From contig CAMDJM010000021.1 of assembly GCA_945900785.1 (NCBI GenBank), positions 1-64,000 of the forward strand: a stretch of DNA of 64,000 nt, written 5' to 3'. The notes under the pieces were generated by a model. The model was not told the origin of the DNA and ran no database searches. It saw only the letters and a list, made by a program, of their open reading frames with translations. The position numbers and the translations under genes were made by a program. Source of the stretch: Akkermansia muciniphila. GTDB lineage: Bacteria; Verrucomicrobiota; Verrucomicrobiia; Verrucomicrobiales; V1-33. Below are positions 2,152-44,952 of this stretch, piece by piece. Numbering within the stretch: position 1 is the first letter of the stretch; every line of letters begins with the position of its first letter.

Positions 2152-3009
2152 TCAGGACAATTTCCCTGACATACGGGCATAATGAAACAGAAACTGCTGG
2201 GCATAACCGCCGGCGGGGCCAAAGTGCGTGCGGGCAAAGTGACGCAGGGCGGCAGCCTTGATGTCAGGATCCCCGGCAAAATAAAGTTCGCGCAGGACCC
2301 GCTCGACCCAGACATCGACCGGGAAAGCCGCTAGCCGCTGCCAACCAAAGAGGAGGGCACAGTTGGCAATTTTTTCCCCAACGCCATGCAACTGACAGAG
2401 CGCCGCCCGGGCGGCATCGTCCGGCAGCGAGGCGACGGCAGCGAGGTCAAACCGCCCGCTGGTGATGTCGCTGGCGGTGCGGTGCAGGAAGGGGGCCCGG
2501 TAACCAAGGCCACAGGCCCGCAGGGCTATTTCACCGGCCCCGGCGAGCGCTGCTGGTGTTGGATAGGCCCATTGCTCCGGCAGCCCTGGCGACGGAATGG
2601 CTTCCCCGAACCGCTGCCGGAGCGTGAGGGAAATCTGCCGGATGTGCGGGACCTGTTTCAGTGAGGAGGTGATGAAGGTAGCGAGGCATTCCCAAGCCGG
2701 CTGCCGGATGATCCGCAGGCCCGGACACCACTCCATGGCGCGCCGCAGGGGCTGGTCTCCAGCCGGGAACGTAGTGCTGAGGGCGCTCAGATCATGATCC
2801 AGTCCCAGGTAATCCATCACCAGTTCCCGGGTCCCGGGGCTGCAATGGAGCCCCTCGGGGGTGGGCTGCGAAAGTTGGACAGGTGTGGCCCCAATGAGCC
2901 CTGCCCACCCGCCTTCATGCGCGTGCCAGTGAAAGACCTGACCACTTTGCAGGGTGGCGGTGAGATCGAATGGCCAGCCGGAGAGTGGAATGATATCGGG
3001 AGCTGGCAT
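2152..3009 (-). CDS. OGG1/HhH-GPD family DNA glycosylase
   Basis: A 285-residue HhH-GPD superfamily protein with the layout of 8-oxoguanine glycosylases. The N-terminal part has LQSGQVFHWH, as in OGG1/AlkA N-domains. The helix-hairpin-helix is LCQLHGVGEKIANC near residue 205 and is followed by FPVDVWVERVL, which carries the catalytic Asp of the GPD loop. It would excise oxidised or alkylated purines from DNA. Aligned to human OGG1, the HKAL lysine that makes the Schiff base falls on alanine here (ARAAL). The activity may therefore be monofunctional or differ in substrate. It stands alone, and its upstream leader is pyrimidine-rich and merges into a heptamer repeat. Confidence 0.82.
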   Translation of the reverse strand: MPAPDIIPLSGWPFDLTATLQSGQVFHWHAHEGGWAGLIGATPVQLSQPTPEGLHCSPGTRELVMDYLGLDHDLSALSTTFPAGDQPLRRAMEWCPGLRIIRQPAWECLATFITSSLKQVPHIRQISLTLRQRFGEAIPSPGLPEQWAYPTPAALAGAGEIALRACGLGYRAPFLHRTASDITSGRFDLAAVASLPDDAARAALCQLHGVGEKIANCALLFGWQRLAAFPVDVWVERVLRELYFAGDPDIKAAALRHFARTHFGPAGGYAQQFLFHYARMSGKLS

Positions 3010-3024
3010 AGGGATCAGAGGAGA

Positions 3025-3101
3025 GAAGTCAGAAATCAGAAGGCAGAGGTCAGAAGGCAGCAGGCAAAAGGCAGAGGTCAGAGGTCAGAGGTCAGAGGTC
3101 A
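3025..3101. repeat. Heptameric short tandem repeat, 11 units of GARGKCA
   Basis: The stretch divides exactly into eleven 7-base units: gaagtca, gaaatca, gaaggca, gaggtca, gaaggca, gcaggca, aaaggca, then four gaggtca. The last four are identical, which suggests recent expansion. It lies just upstream of the glycosylase start and reaches into its leader. Confidence 0.9.
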
Positions 3102-3151
3102 GGGATGGACTCTGCCAGATGGTGGCGCGCATCAAGGGCGCTGAGGATCTT

Positions 3152-16332: not shown

Positions 16333-16435
16333 GGAGCAAGGGCGGGAGGGTGGCGGGGGTTATTGGGTATTGGACATCAGTAAATCAAATATCAAAGGGA
16401 AACTAATTTTGAAGGGCGGCTGGTGGTGGCAGGGT

Positions 16436-25560: not shown

Positions 25561-26604
25561 ATGCTGCGTCATCCGCTCCTCACCCTGCCCGCCATGGCCC
25601 TCCTGGCGGTAGCTGATGGAGCCGCCTGCCTTGCTTTCGTCGGAAAATCCACCGCGCTTCCTCCTGCCGCCGCCAGCTTTCTCTCCCAGTTGCCGCCAGC
25701 GCTCACCCATTCCGCCAATGCAGCCATCCCGTTAGGCTTGCACGCTGCCATGGCCTTCCTTGCCTCACTGCTCGGAGCCGCCGCCCTCACCGAAGCCACC
25801 AAACTCACCCGCTTCACTCTCGCCCTCTTTTTCCTGGTTCTCACCCTGACCATTCCCGTCATCGGCATCCTCATCACTGCCGCTCTAGCCCTCATCCTCC
25901 GCCAGCCGTCCCTTGGCGGGCTCCGGCCTGAGGAGCGCTTCGTCTTTGGCAATCCGGAGGACACCGCTGCCCGCCGCGAGTCCCGCGATCCGCACCCGAA
26001 TCTCATCCCCCTAGCCGCCCGCTTTCGCGACATGGATGAAGACACGCTCTGCCGCGCTATTCTTGGTTTAAAGCACCTCGGCCCCGTCAGCGCCATCGCC
26101 CCCTTTCTCCGCCGCTTCCAGCAGGACCCCCGCACCTCCGTCCAATTCAGCGCCCAGGCTGTGCTCACCGGAGCCACCGAAGCCCTCGAAGAAACCGTCC
26201 GCACCCTCCGCGCCCGTGCCGCCGCCGACCCCCGCGACCCCGAAACCACCCTCGCCCTCGCCAGCACCCTGGATCAACTAGCCGGGTGGACCCCACCTGG
26301 CGACACCACCGCTGCCCTCTACCGCCGCGATGCCACCGCCCTCCTCCTGCCGTTGCAAAACCACCCTGCCCTCCAGCACCGCGTCCTCCCCCTCCTCGCC
26401 CGCCAACAACTCACCACCGGCCCCACCGCCGCCCTCCAAACCACCGCCGCTGCTGCCACTGCCACTACCCCCACATCCCCAGCCGCACACCTCGCCCATC
26501 TCCAATCCCTCTTCCAGCAAGCCCGCTGGGACGACCTCGCCGCCGCCGCCGCCCAACTCCCCCTCCCCCCCGGCCACGCCGAATCCCAAGCCTTCTGGAC
26601 CTAG
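25561..26604 (+). CDS. pelE: PelE-like Pel synthase subunit (membrane plus TPR-like)
   Basis: 347 residues. Membrane helices lie near 8-25, 55-80 and 85-115 (LALFFLVLTLTIPVIGILIT), followed by a long Ala-rich helical region with TPR-like repeats (RAAADPRDPETTLALASTLDQLAG). This is the architecture of PelE, which partners PelD, PelF and PelG in the inner-membrane Pel polymerising complex. Sequence conservation of PelE is low, so the call relies on architecture and position between pelD and pelF/pelG. The start ATG follows a pyrimidine-rich leader and the REP hairpins. The C-terminal end is rich in Ala, Thr and Pro. Confidence 0.78.
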   Translation: MLRHPLLTLPAMALLAVADGAACLAFVGKSTALPPAAASFLSQLPPALTHSANAAIPLGLHAAMAFLASLLGAAALTEATKLTRFTLALFFLVLTLTIPVIGILITAALALILRQPSLGGLRPEERFVFGNPEDTAARRESRDPHPNLIPLAARFRDMDEDTLCRAILGLKHLGPVSAIAPFLRRFQQDPRTSVQFSAQAVLTGATEALEETVRTLRARAAADPRDPETTLALASTLDQLAGWTPPGDTTAALYRRDATALLLPLQNHPALQHRVLPLLARQQLTTGPTAALQTTAAAATATTPTSPAAHLAHLQSLFQQARWDDLAAAAAQLPLPPGHAESQAFWT

Positions 26605-26619
26605 CCCGAGCAACGAAGC

Positions 26620-26746
26620 GGCCACGGATGGCACGGATGGCACGGATAATACGGATAAACACAGATTTACAAAAATTCACTTCCCTTCCAAAAACCTCTA
26701 TCCAGCCCTATCCGTGAAATCCGTTCTATCGGTGCCATCCGTGGCC
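26620..26746. repeat. MITE-like element with 19-bp terminal inverted repeats (ACGGATGGC family)
   Basis: The left end GGCCACGGATGGCACGGAT and right end ATCGGTGCCATCCGTGGCC are inverted copies with one mismatch, 127 bp apart. Inside are further ACGGAT units (acggataatacggataaacacagattta). A degenerate relative of the inner part lies at about 48150-48200 (ccacggatgg...cacagattta). No coding capacity. It sits between pelE and the next small gene. Confidence 0.75.
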
Positions 26747-26778
26747 CCGCAGCAACCTTAAACCCCTAGAAACCACCC

Positions 26779-27135
26779 GTGGATTTCACCGGTATTCTCC
26801 TGCTCGTCCTCGCCAGCCTCACCAGCGGTTTGGCGGTAGCAGCCGTATTCCACGATAGATTCCAAAAGCCGATCGCCAGTCTCCTTTGCTTGCTCTCCGC
26901 CGTCGCACCTTGGTTCAGCATCCTGCCCCTCTTCTCCCATTTCCAATTTGGCAATTTCCTGATCATCTTCGGCCTCTTCGGTGCCACTCCCGTCCTCCTA
27001 ATCTCCTTCTTCCTGTTTGGCCTTGGCAAGCCGTATCCTGCCCGCGCCCGCTCCGCCGGCTTCGCCCTTACCGCCATGTTCAGCGCCCTGATCACCTTTT
27101 TAGCTACTTTCAACTTATTGTCAAAAATGGAGTAA
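26779..27135 (+). CDS. Small polytopic membrane protein in the pel locus (paralog A)
   Basis: 118 residues with three to four hydrophobic helices (about 4-24, 33-51, 60-82, 92-112), starting at a GTG. Family unknown. It shares landmarks with the next gene: DRFQ after the first helix, a G-x-P-x-P-x-R-A loop (GLGKPYPARARSAGF) before the last helix, and a small-residue MFSAL helix. The two genes therefore look like a diverged duplication. It lies between pelE and pelF in the same direction, separated from pelE by a MITE-like repeat. A role in the Pel complex is suggested only by position. Confidence 0.65.
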   Translation: MDFTGILLLVLASLTSGLAVAAVFHDRFQKPIASLLCLLSAVAPWFSILPLFSHFQFGNFLIIFGLFGATPVLLISFFLFGLGKPYPARARSAGFALTAMFSALITFLATFNLLSKME

Positions 27136-27165
27136 TCAGCCCTCCTCCTTCCTGCCGCTTTTCAA

Positions 27166-27582
27166 ATGAATCTTCCCGTTCTCTTGTCTTACACCAGATT
27201 GCACAGTGTTGACCAAGCCCAGCTGTTGTTTGTCAGTGGCGTTCTCACCATCATTTTTGCACTGAATGCTGTTTCCTATGATAGATTTCAGACATTTGGG
27301 GCAAGTTGCCTAAACTCACTGACAGCCTTGGCCGTTTATGTAACTATTCTCCTGAAGTTTGATGCGTTGCCGGCCATTGAACATGCGTTCCATCGAAAGT
27401 GGTTGCTCCCACTGCAGTATCTTGGAGTATTTTGCGGTCCCCTTCTTCTTGCCACAGGTGCCATGTTTCGGTTGGGCCCCCCGCATCCAAAGCGGGCTCT
27501 TGCCGTCGGTTTCTCCTTTGCGGGCATGGTTAGCGGATTACTTTTCGCCTTTCCAGTAATTTACCAATTAATACACAACTAA
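27166..27582 (+). CDS. Small polytopic membrane protein in the pel locus (paralog B)
   Basis: 138 residues with about four hydrophobic helices. It contains YDRFQTFGASCLNSLTALAV, then FRLGPPHPKRALAVGFSFAG and MVSGLLFAF, aligning with DRFQ and GKPYPARARSAGF of the previous gene at similar spacing. No known family is recognised. GC content is clearly lower than in pelF, hinting at a different origin or relaxed codon use. It is co-directional with pelE, paralog A (30 bp upstream) and pelF (about 100 bp downstream), so probably co-transcribed. Confidence 0.65.
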   Translation: MNLPVLLSYTRLHSVDQAQLLFVSGVLTIIFALNAVSYDRFQTFGASCLNSLTALAVYVTILLKFDALPAIEHAFHRKWLLPLQYLGVFCGPLLLATGAMFRLGPPHPKRALAVGFSFAGMVSGLLFAFPVIYQLIHN

Positions 27583-27638
27583 GATTCGCAGGAATCCAAT
27601 CCAACCCGAACCACCAGGCTCTTCCAGCAGCACCCCCC

Positions 27639-27666
27639 AATAACCAATAAACAGGAACCAATAACT
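27639..27666. repeat. AATAACC heptamer element upstream of pelF
   Basis: Four 7-base units, AATAACC AATAAAC AGGAACC AATAACT, end 14 bp before the pelF ATG and are followed by a C/T-rich leader (tccacccccctccc). The same four-unit design precedes pelG. Confidence 0.8.
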
Positions 27667-27680
27667 TCCACCCCCCTCCC

Positions 27681-29240
27681 ATGTCCCGCCCCGCCACCAC
27701 CACCACCCCAGAGGTCTGCCTTCTCGTCGAAGGCACCTACCCCTACGTGGCGGGCGGAGTCTCCACCTGGGTGCACCAGATCATCACCGCCCTGCCGGAT
27801 CTCAGTTTCTCCGTCTTCTTCATCGGGTCGGAAAAATCCCCCACCGCCAAATACAAGTATCAGCTTCCCGCCAATGTCACCCGCGTGGACGAAATCTACC
27901 TGCACGACCCAATCACCGCTCCCCCGCGCCGTCAGGCCCGGGGGGAGGATGCCGCCGCCGTTCACCAGGCCATCCGCCAATTGCTGAGCCACGCCCCGGA
28001 CGACCCTGCCGCCGCTGGGGCACTGGATGATCTTTCCACCAAAGTCGCCTGCCTCGCCCGCCGCGTTTCCTTTGATAACTTCTGGCGGGCCACCGGCACC
28101 TGGCAGCTCATCCAGGAAATTTACCATCAGTATGCCGAAGGCGGTTCCTTCCTGGACTTTTACTGGTCCCTGCGCAGCCTTGTGGAACCCGTCTGGCGGC
28201 TCATGTCCAGTGTCCTCCAGGTCCCGCCCGCCCGCGTCTATCACAGCCTTTGCACTGGTTATGCCGGGTTCGTCGGTGGCCTCGCCGCCCGGCACCATAA
28301 CGCCACCTTCCTCCTCAGCGAGCACGGCATCTACGTCCGCGAACGCATCGCCGACCTGCAAAAAGCCCGCTGGATCCACGATCCGCCCATCCTGCGCCCG
28401 GGCCTCCTGCAACGCCCCACCCTGCTGCGCCGCGTCTGGATCGCCTTCTTCGAACTCCTTGGCCGCTTCGCCTACCAATCCGCCCGCCGCATCACCACCC
28501 TCTTTGTCAGGAATGCCGGATTCCAGATCGAACTCGGCGCGCCGCCGGACAAGCTCGAAATCATCCCCAACGGCGTCCATCCGCCGGACTTCGATCAACT
28601 GCGGGCCACGCGCAATGCCCTGATCGCCCAAAACCCGGAACGCGAAGTCGTGGGCTTCCTCGGCCGTGTGGTTTCCATCAAGGACGTCAAAACCCTCCTC
28701 CGGGCCGCCCGCCTCACCGTCGACCAGCGCCCCGCCGCCCAATTCCTTATCGCTGGCCCGCTCGACGAGGAACCCGCCTATGCCGCCGCCTGTCAGGAAC
28801 TCAGCCGCAATCTCGGCCTCGAAAACCACGTCCAATTCCTCGGCCCCCAGCAGCGCGATGATCTCCTCCCCGCCATCGACATCATGCTCCTCACCAGTTT
28901 CAGCGAAGGTCTCCCCTTTGTTATTCTCGAAGCCTTCGCCGCCGCCATCCCCTGCGTCAGCACCGATGTCGGTTCCTGCCGCGAACTCATCGAAGGCCGC
29001 GCCAACGAACAACCACCCCTCGGCCCCGCCGGCCTCGTCGCCCCCGTCGGCAAAGCCGAACTGATCGCCTCCGCCCTGATCCGCCTCCTCCGCGACCGCC
29101 CCCTCGCCACCCGCATGGGCGAAGCCGGCCGCACCCGCGCCACCGCCCACTACGCCCGCGACGGCGTGGTGCAACGCTACCGGGAGCTGTATTGCGGGGA
29201 GGGAGTTATTGGGAAGGAGTTATTGGTTAATGGTTATTAG
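27681..29240 (+). CDS. pelF: PelF, GT4-family glycosyltransferase of Pel synthesis
   Basis: 519 residues, the usual PelF length. The N-terminus VCLLVEGTYPYVAGGVSTWVHQII is the hallmark start of PelF, followed by FLLSEHGIYVRERI, the GT4 nucleotide-binding region LEIIPNGVHPPDF, GFLGRVVSIKDVKTLL, and the acceptor/E-x7-E region SFSEGLPFVILEAFAAAIP. PelF uses UDP-GlcNAc/GalNAc to polymerise Pel in the cytoplasm, bound to PelD/E/G. The last dozen residues (GEGVIGKELLVNGY) are encoded by an inverted copy of the AATAACC repeat, so the natural C-terminus has been altered or extended by the element. Confidence 0.92.
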   Translation: MSRPATTTTPEVCLLVEGTYPYVAGGVSTWVHQIITALPDLSFSVFFIGSEKSPTAKYKYQLPANVTRVDEIYLHDPITAPPRRQARGEDAAAVHQAIRQLLSHAPDDPAAAGALDDLSTKVACLARRVSFDNFWRATGTWQLIQEIYHQYAEGGSFLDFYWSLRSLVEPVWRLMSSVLQVPPARVYHSLCTGYAGFVGGLAARHHNATFLLSEHGIYVRERIADLQKARWIHDPPILRPGLLQRPTLLRRVWIAFFELLGRFAYQSARRITTLFVRNAGFQIELGAPPDKLEIIPNGVHPPDFDQLRATRNALIAQNPEREVVGFLGRVVSIKDVKTLLRAARLTVDQRPAAQFLIAGPLDEEPAYAAACQELSRNLGLENHVQFLGPQQRDDLLPAIDIMLLTSFSEGLPFVILEAFAAAIPCVSTDVGSCRELIEGRANEQPPLGPAGLVAPVGKAELIASALIRLLRDRPLATRMGEAGRTRATAHYARDGVVQRYRELYCGEGVIGKELLVNGY

Positions 29241-29351
29241 TTATCAGGAAAATGCCCGCCCCTCTGCCTTGCCCTATCCTCCCTCATCCGTTCCCCCATC
29301 CTCCCCACAGCGCCCCGGCCCCTAATAACCAGTAACCATTAACCAATAACT
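29208..29351. repeat. Inverted pair of AATAACC heptamer elements spanning the pelF stop and pelG leader
   Basis: At 29208-29245 the complement reads GATAACT AATAACC ATTAACC AATAACT; at 29324-29351 the plus strand reads AATAACC AGTAACC ATTAACC AATAACT. The first copy covers the pelF stop codon, and the second ends 9 bp before the pelG ATG. Together they can form a long stem (about 30 bp with few mismatches) with an 80-nt loop in pelF-pelG mRNA. Confidence 0.85.
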
Positions 29352-29360
29352 CCTCCCCCC

Positions 29361-30740
29361 ATGGCCGGCATCGGATTCGAACTCAAACACCTCTCGCGGC
29401 ATCAGAATGTCGAAGGAATCCTGCGCGCCTATGGGTTTGCCGCCGTCATCAGCAGCGGGCCCTGGATCATTTCCATTTTCGCACTGCTCATTCTCACGTA
29501 TTTTCTGCGCTCGCTGCTGAACCAGGGGGAACTGGATCTTTTCTCCACCTCGGTGACTCACGCCTACGCCTTTTCCCTCATCCTCGTTGGTCCGCTCCAG
29601 CTGGTGCTCACCCGTCACGCCGCCGACCGCTTTTTCACCAAATCCCGGGATAGCATCTTCCCCGCCTGCTATGGGGCCCTCGCCCTCACCGCCCTGCTCT
29701 CCGCCATCGTGGGGGGCCTCTTCTTCCACTTCGCCGTTCCTGGAAATCTTCTCTATCAGGTCAGCGCCACCGCCCTGCTGGTCCTCGTCTCCTGCATTTT
29801 CATCGTCTCCAACTACCTCAACGCCCTCAAGGACTACCAATCTGTGGTGCTCGGGTTCGCCATTGGATACGCCACCGCCTGCATTCTCGCCTGGGCCGGG
29901 GCGCAGTGGCTGGGAGCCGCTGCTGTCCTGCCAGGATTTACCGCCGGACATGGACTCCTCCTCGTCTGGCTCATCGCCTGCCTGCACCGGGAATTCGGCC
30001 GCCCTGGCCCCGGAGCCCATAGCGCCTGGGACTTCCTTCGTTACTTCCGCCGCTTTCCTGCCCTCGCCCTCCGCGGCTTCTTCTACAGCCTCGGCATCTG
30101 GGCGGATAAACTCGTCTTCTGGTGGTTCTCCGCCGGCCGCGAACAAATCGTCCCCGGCGGCCTGCTCTACGCCGCCCCGCAATACGACACCGCCGTCTAT
30201 CTGAGCTTCCTCAGTATCGTCCCTGGCATGGCCGTCTTCTTCCTCAAGCTGGAAACCGACTTCGCCGGGAAATACGCCGCTTTCTTCTCCGCCATTGAAG
30301 ACCGCGGCTCCCTCCAACAAATCCAATCCGCCAAGACGTCCGTCATCCTCACCCTCCGCGCCGGCCTCGCCCAGCTTTTCAAAATCCAGGGCCTCGTCAC
30401 CGCCTTCCTCGTCGTCTTCGCCCACCCCATCGCCACCCTCGCCGGCATCGGCTCTATCCAAACCGGCATCTTCCAAATCACCCTCTTCGGTGCCTTCCTC
30501 CTCGTCTGCTTCCTCTCGCTCCTCACCATTCTGTTCTACTTCGATGACCAACGCGGCGTCCTCCTCGCCAGCCTCACCTTTGCCCTCCTCAACATCGGCC
30601 TCAGCCTGCCCACCATCCTCATGAACGAAGCATGGCATGGCTTCGGTTTCGTCGTCGCCGCCGGCCTCGCCCTCCTCATCGTCACCCACCGCGTCAACCA
30701 CCACGTCGCCCGCATGGACGAAATGGTCTTCCGGGCCTAG
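29361..30740 (+). CDS. pelG: PelG, MATE-like inner-membrane protein of Pel export
   Basis: 459 residues with about 12 hydrophobic helices and the PelG signature start MAGIGFELKHLSR..., then YGFAAVISSGPWIISIFALL. Conserved inner parts include LVLTRHAADRFF, GIWADKLVFWW and MAVFFLKLETDFA. PelG belongs to the MATE/flippase-like superfamily and forms the inner-membrane Pel synthase and transporter with PelD, PelE and PelF. It starts 120 bp after pelF, behind a heptamer repeat and a C-run without a Shine-Dalgarno site. A frameshifted small membrane gene follows. Confidence 0.92.
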   Translation: MAGIGFELKHLSRHQNVEGILRAYGFAAVISSGPWIISIFALLILTYFLRSLLNQGELDLFSTSVTHAYAFSLILVGPLQLVLTRHAADRFFTKSRDSIFPACYGALALTALLSAIVGGLFFHFAVPGNLLYQVSATALLVLVSCIFIVSNYLNALKDYQSVVLGFAIGYATACILAWAGAQWLGAAAVLPGFTAGHGLLLVWLIACLHREFGRPGPGAHSAWDFLRYFRRFPALALRGFFYSLGIWADKLVFWWFSAGREQIVPGGLLYAAPQYDTAVYLSFLSIVPGMAVFFLKLETDFAGKYAAFFSAIEDRGSLQQIQSAKTSVILTLRAGLAQLFKIQGLVTAFLVVFAHPIATLAGIGSIQTGIFQITLFGAFLLVCFLSLLTILFYFDDQRGVLLASLTFALLNIGLSLPTILMNEAWHGFGFVVAAGLALLIVTHRVNHHVARMDEMVFRA

Positions 30741-42180: not shown

Positions 42181-44860
42181 TCATATTTCAGCCGTTCTGA
42201 GACCCCGCCAAAGTGCGGAGGCGGTGGATCTGGGGTTGGCCATGGTGCGGCGGCATGCTCCCGGGATCTACCGGGCCTGGCTGCTTTTTGTGCTGCCGCT
42301 CTGGGGCGTGCTGGGCGCTTTGCTCCATGACTATCCCAGTGTCCTGGTCGCCGTGGTCTGGTGGCTGAAGCCGCTGTATGACAGGATCGTGCTCTTTTAT
42401 CTCGGGCGGGCACTGTTTGGGGAGGCTCCCACGCTGCGGGAACAGATCCGGGAATGGCCCCGCCTGCTCACCCGGCGTCTGGGCCTTTCCCTGCTGTGGG
42501 GCCGGTTTTCCGGCGTGCGCTCCTTCACCATGCCGGTGGTGGTGCTGGAAGGGCTGACGGGAAAATCTTATGAAAGCCGGACGGCGATTCTGAAACGCCA
42601 CGGGGGCGCGCCGGCCATTGGCTTTATGCAATTGTTTTTGCTCTTGGAGTTGGCCGTCATCATGGGATTGTGGATGGGCATCCGGGATTTCCTGCCGGAG
42701 GAGGCATTGGAGTGGATGGCTCAGATCAGGATTTACCTGAAGCAGGGGGGAGATCCGCCGCTCAGTCTGCTGTGGAGTCTGGCCGGATGTTATCTGGTGG
42801 CCGTGGCGTTTCTGGAGCCGTTTTATGCCGGGGGCGGGTTTGGTTTATACATCAATACCCGGACCCACCTGGAAGGATGGGATGTGGACCTGGCCTTCCG
42901 CCAGTTGGGCAGCCGGCTGCGGGCCCGGCTGGTGCCGCCACTAGCCTCCCTGCTGGTCTTTTTGCTGGCCCTGGGCAGCGTGGCGGATGGCCTGGCGGCT
43001 GGCGGTGTCCAGGTGGAGCGTGACCAGGCGAAGCAGCAAATCAGGGAAGTGCTGGCTCATCCGGAATTTGAGGAACACGTTGGAAAATACAAGGAATGGG
43101 TCAGTGACAGCCCACCGTCCTCTTCTTCAAGTCCATCGCGGGCAGCGCAGGGCTGGGACTGGAGTTGGATTTATTCGTGGCTGAAAGGATTCGGGAGCCT
43201 GTTTTCCGGGAACTGGCATGAGGTGGCACTGCGGCTGCTGGCAGCAGCGGCGATTGCGGCGCTGTTGGCATGGCTGGGCTGGTGGTGTTGGAAGGGCCTG
43301 CGTTTGCCGCAGCGGCAGCGTGTGGAAAAACCAAAGGATCGTGGCCCCAGGGTAGTGATGGGTTTGCAAACCACGCCGGAATCCCTGCCGCCGGATGTGC
43401 CCTCAGCGGCATGGATGGCGTGGCAGCAGGGCGATCAGGAAGGTGCGGTGCGCCTGCTCTACCGGGGGGCCCTGACATGGCTGATCGGCCAGGCTCCCGG
43501 GCCGGTGCGGGAAAGCGATACCGAAGGGGACTGCCTGCGCCACGCCAGCCGCTTGCCGGACGGAAATCAGCGGAGTTATTTTTTTGAAATCACGGGAACG
43601 TGGCTGGCCTGCGCCTACGGACGCACCCCGCCTCCTGCCGCATTGATGCAGGGCCTGTGCGGCCGCTGGCCCTTTGCCGCCGGGGCACCAGGCCTCCCTG
43701 GGGCAAATCCGTTGGGACCAACGCTCCTGATTTTCCTTCTGATAGGAATGCTGCCGGCGCTCAGCGGGTGCGGCGGCCATTTCGAGGAAAAGGAGCGCGG
43801 GCTGGGCTACGTGGGGGAGGCCAAACGCAATCCCTGGCTGGCGGCGGCCCGTTTTCTGGAATTGAATGACTACCAGGTAGTGAATCAGCGGGGCGTGATG
43901 GACCTGCCTGGTCCGGACGCGGTATTGATCGTGCCGGCCGGAGCCCTCCAGTCCCGGGGTCCTGCGAAACATGTCCTGGACTGGGCCCGCCGGGGAGGGC
44001 ACCTCATTTACCTCGCGGAAGGAGGCGACTCCTTCCTGGACGACTGGAACACCCCTGACTACAAAAGCCCGGTGAATCAGGAACTTCACCCCATGGCGGC
44101 GGAATTGGGGATCACGCTGAAACGGGATAATTCTGCTGCCCGCGTTCAGGAAGTGCAGCTCAAAAGGGAAACCTACCAGGTGAGCCTGCAGGAGGAAATC
44201 CGCTTTGAAGTTTCGGCCGACTTGCGGAAGCCTGACATTCTGGCGGGCCCGCCGGCCGGAGCCTCGCTGGTTAGCCTCCGTCAGGGGATGGGACGGGTCA
44301 CCCTGATCTCCCATGCGCACCTCCTGAGGAACCGTTATATTGACGAAGGGGAGCACGCGGCCCTGCTCCTCGCCCTGGTGCAGCAGACCGGGGCCGGGGC
44401 GGTGTATTTTATCAAGGCCGGACGCGTCAGCCTCTGGGAGATGCTGCTGGAGCATGCCTGGCCCGTCATGTTGGCACTGGTGGTGCTGCTGGTCTTTTGG
44501 CTCTGGCGGGTGCTGCCGCGCTTCGGGCCTGTCCGGGGGCTGCATCAACGCCGGGAGCTGCGCTTTGTCACCCACCTGGAGGAAGCAGGGGCGTATTTCT
44601 GGCAGCACCGCCTCACGGATGCCCTGCTGGAGGCCCCCCGGCAGGCCGTATTCGCCGCCGCGCGCCGCCGGGCCCTGCGTCAGGAGGAGCGGCATTTCCA
44701 CGCCCTCGTCGCCGCGCAATCCGGCCTGACAGAAGAGCGCGTCAATGAGGCCCTCTCCGCCGGAGGCCGCCAGGATGCCCGCGCCTTCACCAGCCAAATG
44801 GCGGATCTCCAGCAAATCCTCCACAGCCTAACCACCGCCCCTCTCCCACCCGGCACCTGA
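42170..44860 (+). CDS. DUF4129-DUF4350 fusion-like large membrane protein
   Basis: About 896 residues from the Met at 42170, which follows a GGGAGGGGGG run, so an SD-like site helps here. Part 1 (1-260) has several membrane helices. Part 2 (about 300-500) carries a membrane helix and the DUF4129-like cytoplasmic region (AAWMAWQQGDQEGAVRLLYRGAL). Part 3 (about 510-720) begins with a lipobox-like SGCGG and a DUF4350-like GAT fold (PDAVLIVPAGALQSRG, HVLDWARRGGHLIYLAEGG). A final helix (HAWPVMLALVVLLVFWLWR) and coiled tail follow. Usually these are separate genes. It sits between SpoIIM and MoxR in the same operon. Confidence 0.75.
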   Translation: MKLDHISAVLRPRQSAEAVDLGLAMVRRHAPGIYRAWLLFVLPLWGVLGALLHDYPSVLVAVVWWLKPLYDRIVLFYLGRALFGEAPTLREQIREWPRLLTRRLGLSLLWGRFSGVRSFTMPVVVLEGLTGKSYESRTAILKRHGGAPAIGFMQLFLLLELAVIMGLWMGIRDFLPEEALEWMAQIRIYLKQGGDPPLSLLWSLAGCYLVAVAFLEPFYAGGGFGLYINTRTHLEGWDVDLAFRQLGSRLRARLVPPLASLLVFLLALGSVADGLAAGGVQVERDQAKQQIREVLAHPEFEEHVGKYKEWVSDSPPSSSSSPSRAAQGWDWSWIYSWLKGFGSLFSGNWHEVALRLLAAAAIAALLAWLGWWCWKGLRLPQRQRVEKPKDRGPRVVMGLQTTPESLPPDVPSAAWMAWQQGDQEGAVRLLYRGALTWLIGQAPGPVRESDTEGDCLRHASRLPDGNQRSYFFEITGTWLACAYGRTPPPAALMQGLCGRWPFAAGAPGLPGANPLGPTLLIFLLIGMLPALSGCGGHFEEKERGLGYVGEAKRNPWLAAARFLELNDYQVVNQRGVMDLPGPDAVLIVPAGALQSRGPAKHVLDWARRGGHLIYLAEGGDSFLDDWNTPDYKSPVNQELHPMAAELGITLKRDNSAARVQEVQLKRETYQVSLQEEIRFEVSADLRKPDILAGPPAGASLVSLRQGMGRVTLISHAHLLRNRYIDEGEHAALLLALVQQTGAGAVYFIKAGRVSLWEMLLEHAWPVMLALVVLLVFWLWRVLPRFGPVRGLHQRRELRFVTHLEEAGAYFWQHRLTDALLEAPRQAVFAAARRRALRQEERHFHALVAAQSGLTEERVNEALSAGGRQDARAFTSQMADLQQILHSLTTAPLPPGT

Positions 44861-44861
44861 C

Positions 44862-44952
44862 ATTTCCCAATTTCCCAATTTTCCCATTTCCCCATTTCCC
44901 CATTTCCCCATTTCCCAATTTCCCAATTTCCCAATTTTCCCAATTTTCCCCT
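44862..44952. repeat. Octameric tandem repeat TTTCCCAA/TTTCCCCA before moxR
   Basis: About eleven units of 8 (occasionally 7 or 9) bases, tttcccaa, tttcccca and variants, fill the short gap between the DUF4350 gene and moxR. Pyrimidine-rich in the mRNA, no hairpin, no coding frame. Confidence 0.88.

Follow-up and report, generated by a model that had tools for sequence, protein, structure and literature searches.

The junction of the genes pelF and pelG on a 64,000-nucleotide stretch of Akkermansia muciniphila DNA (GenBank assembly GCA_945900785.1, contig CAMDJM010000021.1; hereafter the window) raises the question of why a block of seven-base units stands before the start codons of both genes and, inverted, over the stop codon of pelF. 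A sequence-only reading of this DNA had seen in the blocks a mobile mini-repeat recruited as a leader, or an mRNA element tuning the PelF:PelG ratio. Our survey of the genome revealed that the pel blocks are three among about forty dispersed arrays, and we consider it likely that they represent a dispersed heptamer repeat that varies between lineages and accumulates in the spacers of co-directional or convergent genes. The best reading of this repeat is that it is of the same kind as the TAACTGA and GGGAATC repeats, which represent a known but unexplained type of intergenic repeat.

Heptamer blocks at the pelF-pelG junction

The array before pelF (27639..27666, plus strand) is composed of the units AATAACC-AATAAAC-AGGAACC-AATAACT and is joined to the pelF ATG by a C-rich tract of 14 bp (27667..27680, plus strand). 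Before pelG there is a direct four-unit arm, AATAACCAGTAACCATTAACCAATAACT (AATAACC-AGTAACC-ATTAACC-AATAACT; 29324..29351, plus strand), followed by the 9-bp C-rich tract CCTCCCCCC (29352..29360, plus strand) and the pelG ATG at 29361. Both distances to the start codons had been given correctly in the sequence-only reading. By Pfam matches, pelF (27681..29240, plus strand) encodes a protein with DUF3492 and a GT4 glycosyltransferase domain, and pelG (29361..30740, plus strand) an exopolysaccharide exporter (PF16933). The two blocks are identical at 24 of 28 positions; their earlier description as the same four-unit block therefore captures a real similarity but is slightly generous, as the pelF block is decayed, with mutations in its second and third units. 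It also has no inverted partner.

The third block is an inverted four-unit arm, AGTTATTGGTTAATGGTTATTAGTTATC (29218..29245, minus strand), which agrees with the pelG arm at 25 of 28 positions and has a rare GGTTAAT unit in common with it, in the same position. As had been noticed, this arm encodes the end of pelF: the stop codon TAG (29238-29240) lies within it, and the C-terminal residues (..EGVIGKELLVNGY*) are encoded by the arm together with its outer tract. A lone outer AGTTATT unit (29204..29210, minus strand) is located in the 3' end of pelF, with GGGAAGG between it and the main arm. The 78-bp core between the two arms (29246..29323) is single-copy in the genome and unrelated to the other cores.

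The blocks stand out from the rest of the window. The sequence AATAACCAATAAC, when up to two mismatches are allowed, has 10 matches in the window versus 0.25 expected by chance, and a heptamer weight matrix ranks the three blocks as the top three 28-mers on both strands (scores of 29.4, 28.7 and 23.6), compared to 15.4 for the next independent site in the window and 16.2 for the best of eleven random 20-kb stretches of this genome. Apart from them, the window has just one notable match, a two-unit remnant, AATACCCAATAACC, with one mismatch (16358-16371, minus strand).

Genome-wide census and placement at gene borders

The genome surveyed (G000), of which the window is contig C21, comprises 5.08 Mb in 172 contigs, is 86% complete and, to judge from its closest relative, is a MAG of Verrucomicrobiales type. 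The census of (RRTAACY)n arrays combined pattern searches with fetched stretches, every listed site having been fetched, and genes were predicted with a purpose-written codon-usage caller, so that all starts are predictions. Two-unit matches numbered 79, compared to 13 for a reversed-pattern control, and three-unit matches 37, compared to none, which bears out the earlier view of a dispersed mini-repeat. A total of 42 arrays were identified across 32 spacers, and their neighbors include genes for ATP synthase, NADH dehydrogenase, dihydrodipicolinate synthase and peptide deformylase, as well as purine and histidine genes. No functional theme was found among the array-neighboring genes, which are mostly unrelated housekeeping genes.

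Read outward, an array ends in AATAACT, followed usually by a C-rich tract and then by the edge of an open reading frame (ORF). In G000 the AATAACT end lies no more than 30 bp from an ORF edge in 37 of the 42 arrays, whereas placement of the same array anywhere within the same spacer gives an expectation of 12.8 (maximum of 25 in 5000 trials), and the rule recurs in two congeners (19 of 22 arrays, with 4.4 expected, and 22 of 28, with 6.3 expected). Placement is thus non-random, the number of arrays close to an ORF edge being far above the same-spacer expectation. The regular placement at starts that had been proposed for the blocks does not hold as such, since stops are hugged just as often: over the three congeneric genomes, each species in our comparisons being represented by one genome, the nearest edge is a start for 45 arrays and a stop for 47. 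Proximity to starts is therefore half of a rule that concerns gene borders.

Of the 75 spacers that host arrays in the three genomes, 65 are co-directional, 10 convergent and none divergent. The corresponding numbers for all 132 spacers of at least 70 bp are 85, 20 and 27, from which ~15 divergent array spacers would be expected. In addition, the AATAACT end is flanked on its outer side by CCCC at 28 of the 47 stop edges, whereas GGGG follows only 5% of stops generally, and therefore the C-rich tract is not merely a native leader.

The equal use of stop and start edges bears directly on the possibility that an array before a start is a translation leader, that is, a G-poor, unstructured AAUAACC..CCCC segment that aids ribosomes through S1 or a cold-shock protein. 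A role in translation was proposed for the TAACTGA repeats of Beggiatoaceae (MacGregor 2015, PMC4679880), and it would agree with start-side arrays mostly ending 8-31 bp upstream of the start and with the general character of G000 leaders, which are C/T-rich and lack Shine-Dalgarno sites (a Shine-Dalgarno-like 4-mer at only ~10% of the predicted starts of the window and stretches L151-L170, and C at position -1 in 53%). However, half of the arrays lie at stops, in the reverse sense, and a start-specific leader is thereby ruled out as a general rule. Very few genes carry an array, orthologous starts such as that of dapA do without one, and the start-side array and C-tract of paired arms are predicted to be sealed in a stem, which is the opposite of an open leader. 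We regard a leader role as very unlikely.

Junctions in related genomes

The nearest PelG, with 86% identity, is encoded on L051 of G002, a genome labelled Verrucomicrobiales. G002 has 78 three-unit matches genome-wide, yet there is no array at its pelF-pelG junction, where pelF ends in ..YRELYHMSTR* and the spacer to pelG is 67 bp. Comparison of the pelF C-termini of relatives, which had been suggested as a check, found that PelF tails diverge after a YRELY-like motif in those with a readable tail, and thus the tail encoded by the element in the window falls in a non-conserved part of PelF. Regulation specific to Pel was rejected, as arrays adjoin unrelated genes and are missing from the pel junction of G002. 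On the same grounds, and because the arms do not co-vary (see below), the idea that the element tunes the PelF:PelG ratio is not supported.

On the other side of pelF, ~1 kb (26604-27680) separates it from the gene that ends at 26604, compared to only ~70 bp between the same genes in L051. Within this spacer are repeats of the CACGGATGG type and two ORFs, one of them (26779-27135) weakly haemolysin-III-like and the other at 27166-27582.

Elsewhere in the genome, six array-bearing junctions of G000 have counterparts in G002 or G003 that also hold arrays, these differing in unit variants, unit number and core. Five further gene edges were compared, a single query that combined the ends of five flanking genes serving to seek several orthologous junctions at once, and there the spacers of the congeners were mostly short and without arrays. 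No three-unit arrays were found in the congeners G001 and G004, and the distribution of the repeat over the order is patchy (12 of 57 genomes). The most arrays are carried by G056, a genome from another family, whose unit, GATAACT, reads TAACTGA when the phase is shifted and whose arrays obey the border rule (18 of 24 versus 6.5 expected). A phase-variation repeat would change in unit number between strains at a surface gene; for the arrays, unit numbers do differ between species, and the neighbors are mostly housekeeping genes.

Facing arms and the predicted stem

The three genomes together have 23 spacers in which two arms face each other, always inward (a reverse arm and then a direct arm) and never outward, and 21 of the 23 pairs lie between co-directional genes. 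Their cores are 35-179 bp in length and mutually unrelated. As had been anticipated, the inverted pair in the pelF-pelG message can fold, with a long stem predicted at -53.9 kcal/mol (z = -4.1) that can extend into the G-rich and C-rich tracts. No structure is predicted for the block before pelF (z = 0.15).

Such a pair could represent a functional intercistronic hairpin, of the type known for repetitive extragenic palindromic (REP) sequences and bacterial interspersed mosaic elements (BIMEs), that protects the upstream mRNA or acts by attenuation, giving unequal expression. The strength of the pelF-pelG stem argues for such a function, as do the prevalence of pairs between co-directional genes, with none between divergent ones, and the occurrence of bilateral arms much more commonly than independent placement predicts. 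However, in arm-swap permutations across loci, the arms of one locus had no better RNA duplex energy (p = 0.75) and were no closer in sequence (p = 0.84) than swapped arms. Therefore, neither compensatory evolution of the arms nor the compensatory stem changes of a conserved RNA regulatory structure, on which the sequence-only reading had made its proposal depend, were found. Single-arm spacers make up more than half of those with arrays, and the pair is missing from the pelF-pelG junction of G002. In addition, outward pairs would fold equally well yet are absent, and thus the orientation must be set by something other than folding. Taking both sides together, a functional hairpin appears unlikely.

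Several other candidates were considered for the junction and its arms. No terminator-like site is present at the pelF-pelG junction, where the stem, unlike the G+C-rich stem of an intrinsic terminator, is A+T-rich, has a loop of ~78 nt and is without a U run, and no sigma-70 promoter was found there. The possibility that the stop-side arm arose by inverted copying of the start-side arm and C-tract of its own locus was rejected because flank similarity did not exceed that of swapped flanks (p = 0.46); two loci (C101 and C4) look suggestive of such copying. A search for a conserved inner motif, for example GGCCAAT, returned no k-mer above the shuffled background; the one recurrent feature was RGG, often seen at the inner edge.

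The same RGG, together with the inward arms and the conserved outer G/C tracts, is what might be expected of a transposing unit with terminal inverted repeats built of heptamers, resembling a miniature inverted-repeat transposable element (MITE) or a REP doublet forming a hairpin (REPIN) and moved in trans. Paired spacers are also longer than array-free orthologous ones in the purine and deformylase operons. A MITE with a shared core was nevertheless rejected on account of the unrelated cores and the single-copy pel core. A REPIN mobilized by a REP-associated tyrosine transposase (RAYT) was likewise rejected, since the arms are tandem RGTTATY units without a palindromic REP or a GTAG or CGTC tag, and since G003 has arrays without a match to the transposase domain Y1_Tnp, whereas G001 and G004 have Y1_Tnp without three-unit arrays. 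No clean empty site or target duplication was identified, the spacers being unalignable and no array-free relative being near enough. Of the earlier term "mobile mini-repeat", then, the dispersal stands, whereas mobility of the transposon type is unproven, and we consider a transposing unit decidedly unlikely. We give even less credence to paired arms being a portable stop-to-start bridge, in which the whole untranslated spacer would fold into one hairpin whose base brings the stop of one gene to within a few nucleotides of the next start. If true, ribosomes terminating at the first gene could restart on the second despite the 120-nt spacer and the scarcity of Shine-Dalgarno sites in the genome.

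Some of our results weigh against the blocks being simply dispersed copies. When decayed partners are counted, 29 of the 75 array spacers carry arms at both edges, which is far too common for independent copies given that <1% of ORF edges carry an arm (our own estimate from ~42 arrays in a 5-Mb genome). The arms must therefore be somehow coupled, either because a unit moves in paired form or because the hairpin is under selection. When only G000 is considered, the arms of a pair base-pair slightly better with each other than swapped arms do (p = 0.024, uncorrected), and the pel arms have their rare GGTTAAT unit in common. The close match of the pel arms is a notable exception and not the rule, because arms in general are no more alike than swapped ones. 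The six junctions common between species imply that some copies have been kept or regained. Together, the outward AATAACT polarity and the pairing of the arms would also be compatible with a hairpin that has a function or with a mobile unit that is paired.

For the reading that we prefer, namely copies of a dispersed heptamer repeat, each copy is a short RRTAACY run whose AATAACT end and C-rich tract point outward to the nearest ORF edge, and a spacer with a copy at both edges has an inverted pair around a unique core. Unit number and type may turn over through slippage and gene conversion, and copies potentially persist where they do not disrupt coding sequence and do not fall within a divergent, promoter-only spacer. 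At the pel locus, pelF would have acquired its last residues and stop codon from an arm, and the facing arms would fold into a stem in the pelF-pelG transcript as a consequence of facing copies. The predicted pelF-pelG hairpin is thus probably a by-product and not a conserved Pel control device. This underscores the need for caution, in that operon-specific regulation should not be read into such blocks and hairpins.

Relationship to known repeats

Direct repeats of the heptamer TAACTGA occur in marine Beggiatoaceae, some cyanobacteria and Bacteroidetes; in the best-studied genome they lie mostly before start codons, and only one inverted repeat was reported (MacGregor 2015, PMC4679880). Our arrays are similar to them in their period of 7, near-identical unit (here TAACYRA), intergenic location and same sense before start codons, as well as in some overlap with upstream stops, rare Shine-Dalgarno sites, patchy taxonomy and lack of a functional theme. 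In contrast to those repeats, the arrays use stops equally with starts, frequently form inverted pairs around a core, have C-tracts, and occur in Verrucomicrobiota, a phylum unmentioned in PMC4679880. As the G000 units are mainly TAACCAA and TAACTAA, with only the G056 unit being TAACTGA, we have filed the arrays under the general kind and not under the TAACTGA family.

A strand and edge rule, with stop overlap, was described for the GGGAATC / GGGGAYT heptamers of Xanthomonas and Nostoc (2015, PMC4692102). The rule for our arrays is closely similar and includes the stop overlap, and in both cases repeats are scarce between divergent ORFs, adjoin random gene classes and differ in length between relatives. 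The unit sequence differs, however, and quadruplex potential was the focus for the GGGAATC repeats, whereas the units seen here have runs of only two G and the architecture is paired. In addition, most of the GGGAATC repeats stand between the same genes in two species (PMC4692102), whereas most junctions that we compared are not shared. Overall, the arrays have the traits of this border-hugging kind of heptamer: tandem 7-bp units in two to several copies at many genomic sites, an intergenic location, a constant orientation towards the nearest ORF edge, tolerance of stop overlap, and avoidance of divergent ORF pairs (0 of 75 versus 27 of 132).

The STRR repeats of Calothrix are degenerate tandem heptamers dispersed in intergenic DNA, and our arrays are likewise degenerate, tandem, intergenic and dispersed. 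These cyanobacterial heptamers are mentioned in the report on the GGGAATC repeats (PMC4692102). With REP, BIME and REPIN elements (PMC3116915, PMC3733652) the arrays have in common the extragenic inverted pairs within transcribed spacers, but their arms are tandem heptamers without a palindrome of their own or a GTAG tag, and the distribution of RAYTs does not match.

A literature search for intergenic heptanucleotide tandem repeats in Verrucomicrobia found none. Our results add Verrucomicrobiota to the range of a bacterial repeat type that has received little study, and they reveal closely similar orientation and edge rules for heptamers of differing sequence in distant phyla. What is new here is the taxon, the use of stop edges as often as start edges by a TAAC-type unit, and the frequent inward pairs with C-rich outer tracts.

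Replacement between heptamer families

Also new is the replacement of one heptamer family by another at equivalent junctions, in two cases. In the atpD-atpC spacer of G003 (L287 1800-2100) there are two tandem inverted sets, GGTTTCA/CCCTGAA, where G000 has an AATAACY pair, and before hisA G002 (L288) has ATTTCCC units where G000 has AATAACC arrays. The occupation of corresponding junctions by different heptamer families in congeners suggests that the position and the period of the units may be more important than their sequence.

Unit families also mix within one array, since GGTTCTT heptamers run straight into GGTTATT arrays at L037 1100-1250 and L040 1835-1970. The window has further short-period arrays of its own. 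A ATTTCCCA-type 7/8-bp array of 10.5 copies (44862-44946), related to the ATTTCCC array before hisA in G002 (L288), directly follows the stop of an ORF ending at 44860. A TCAGAGG heptamer array of 12.6 copies (3015-3102) likewise hugs an ORF edge, lying immediately before the start of ORF 2152-3009 (minus strand).
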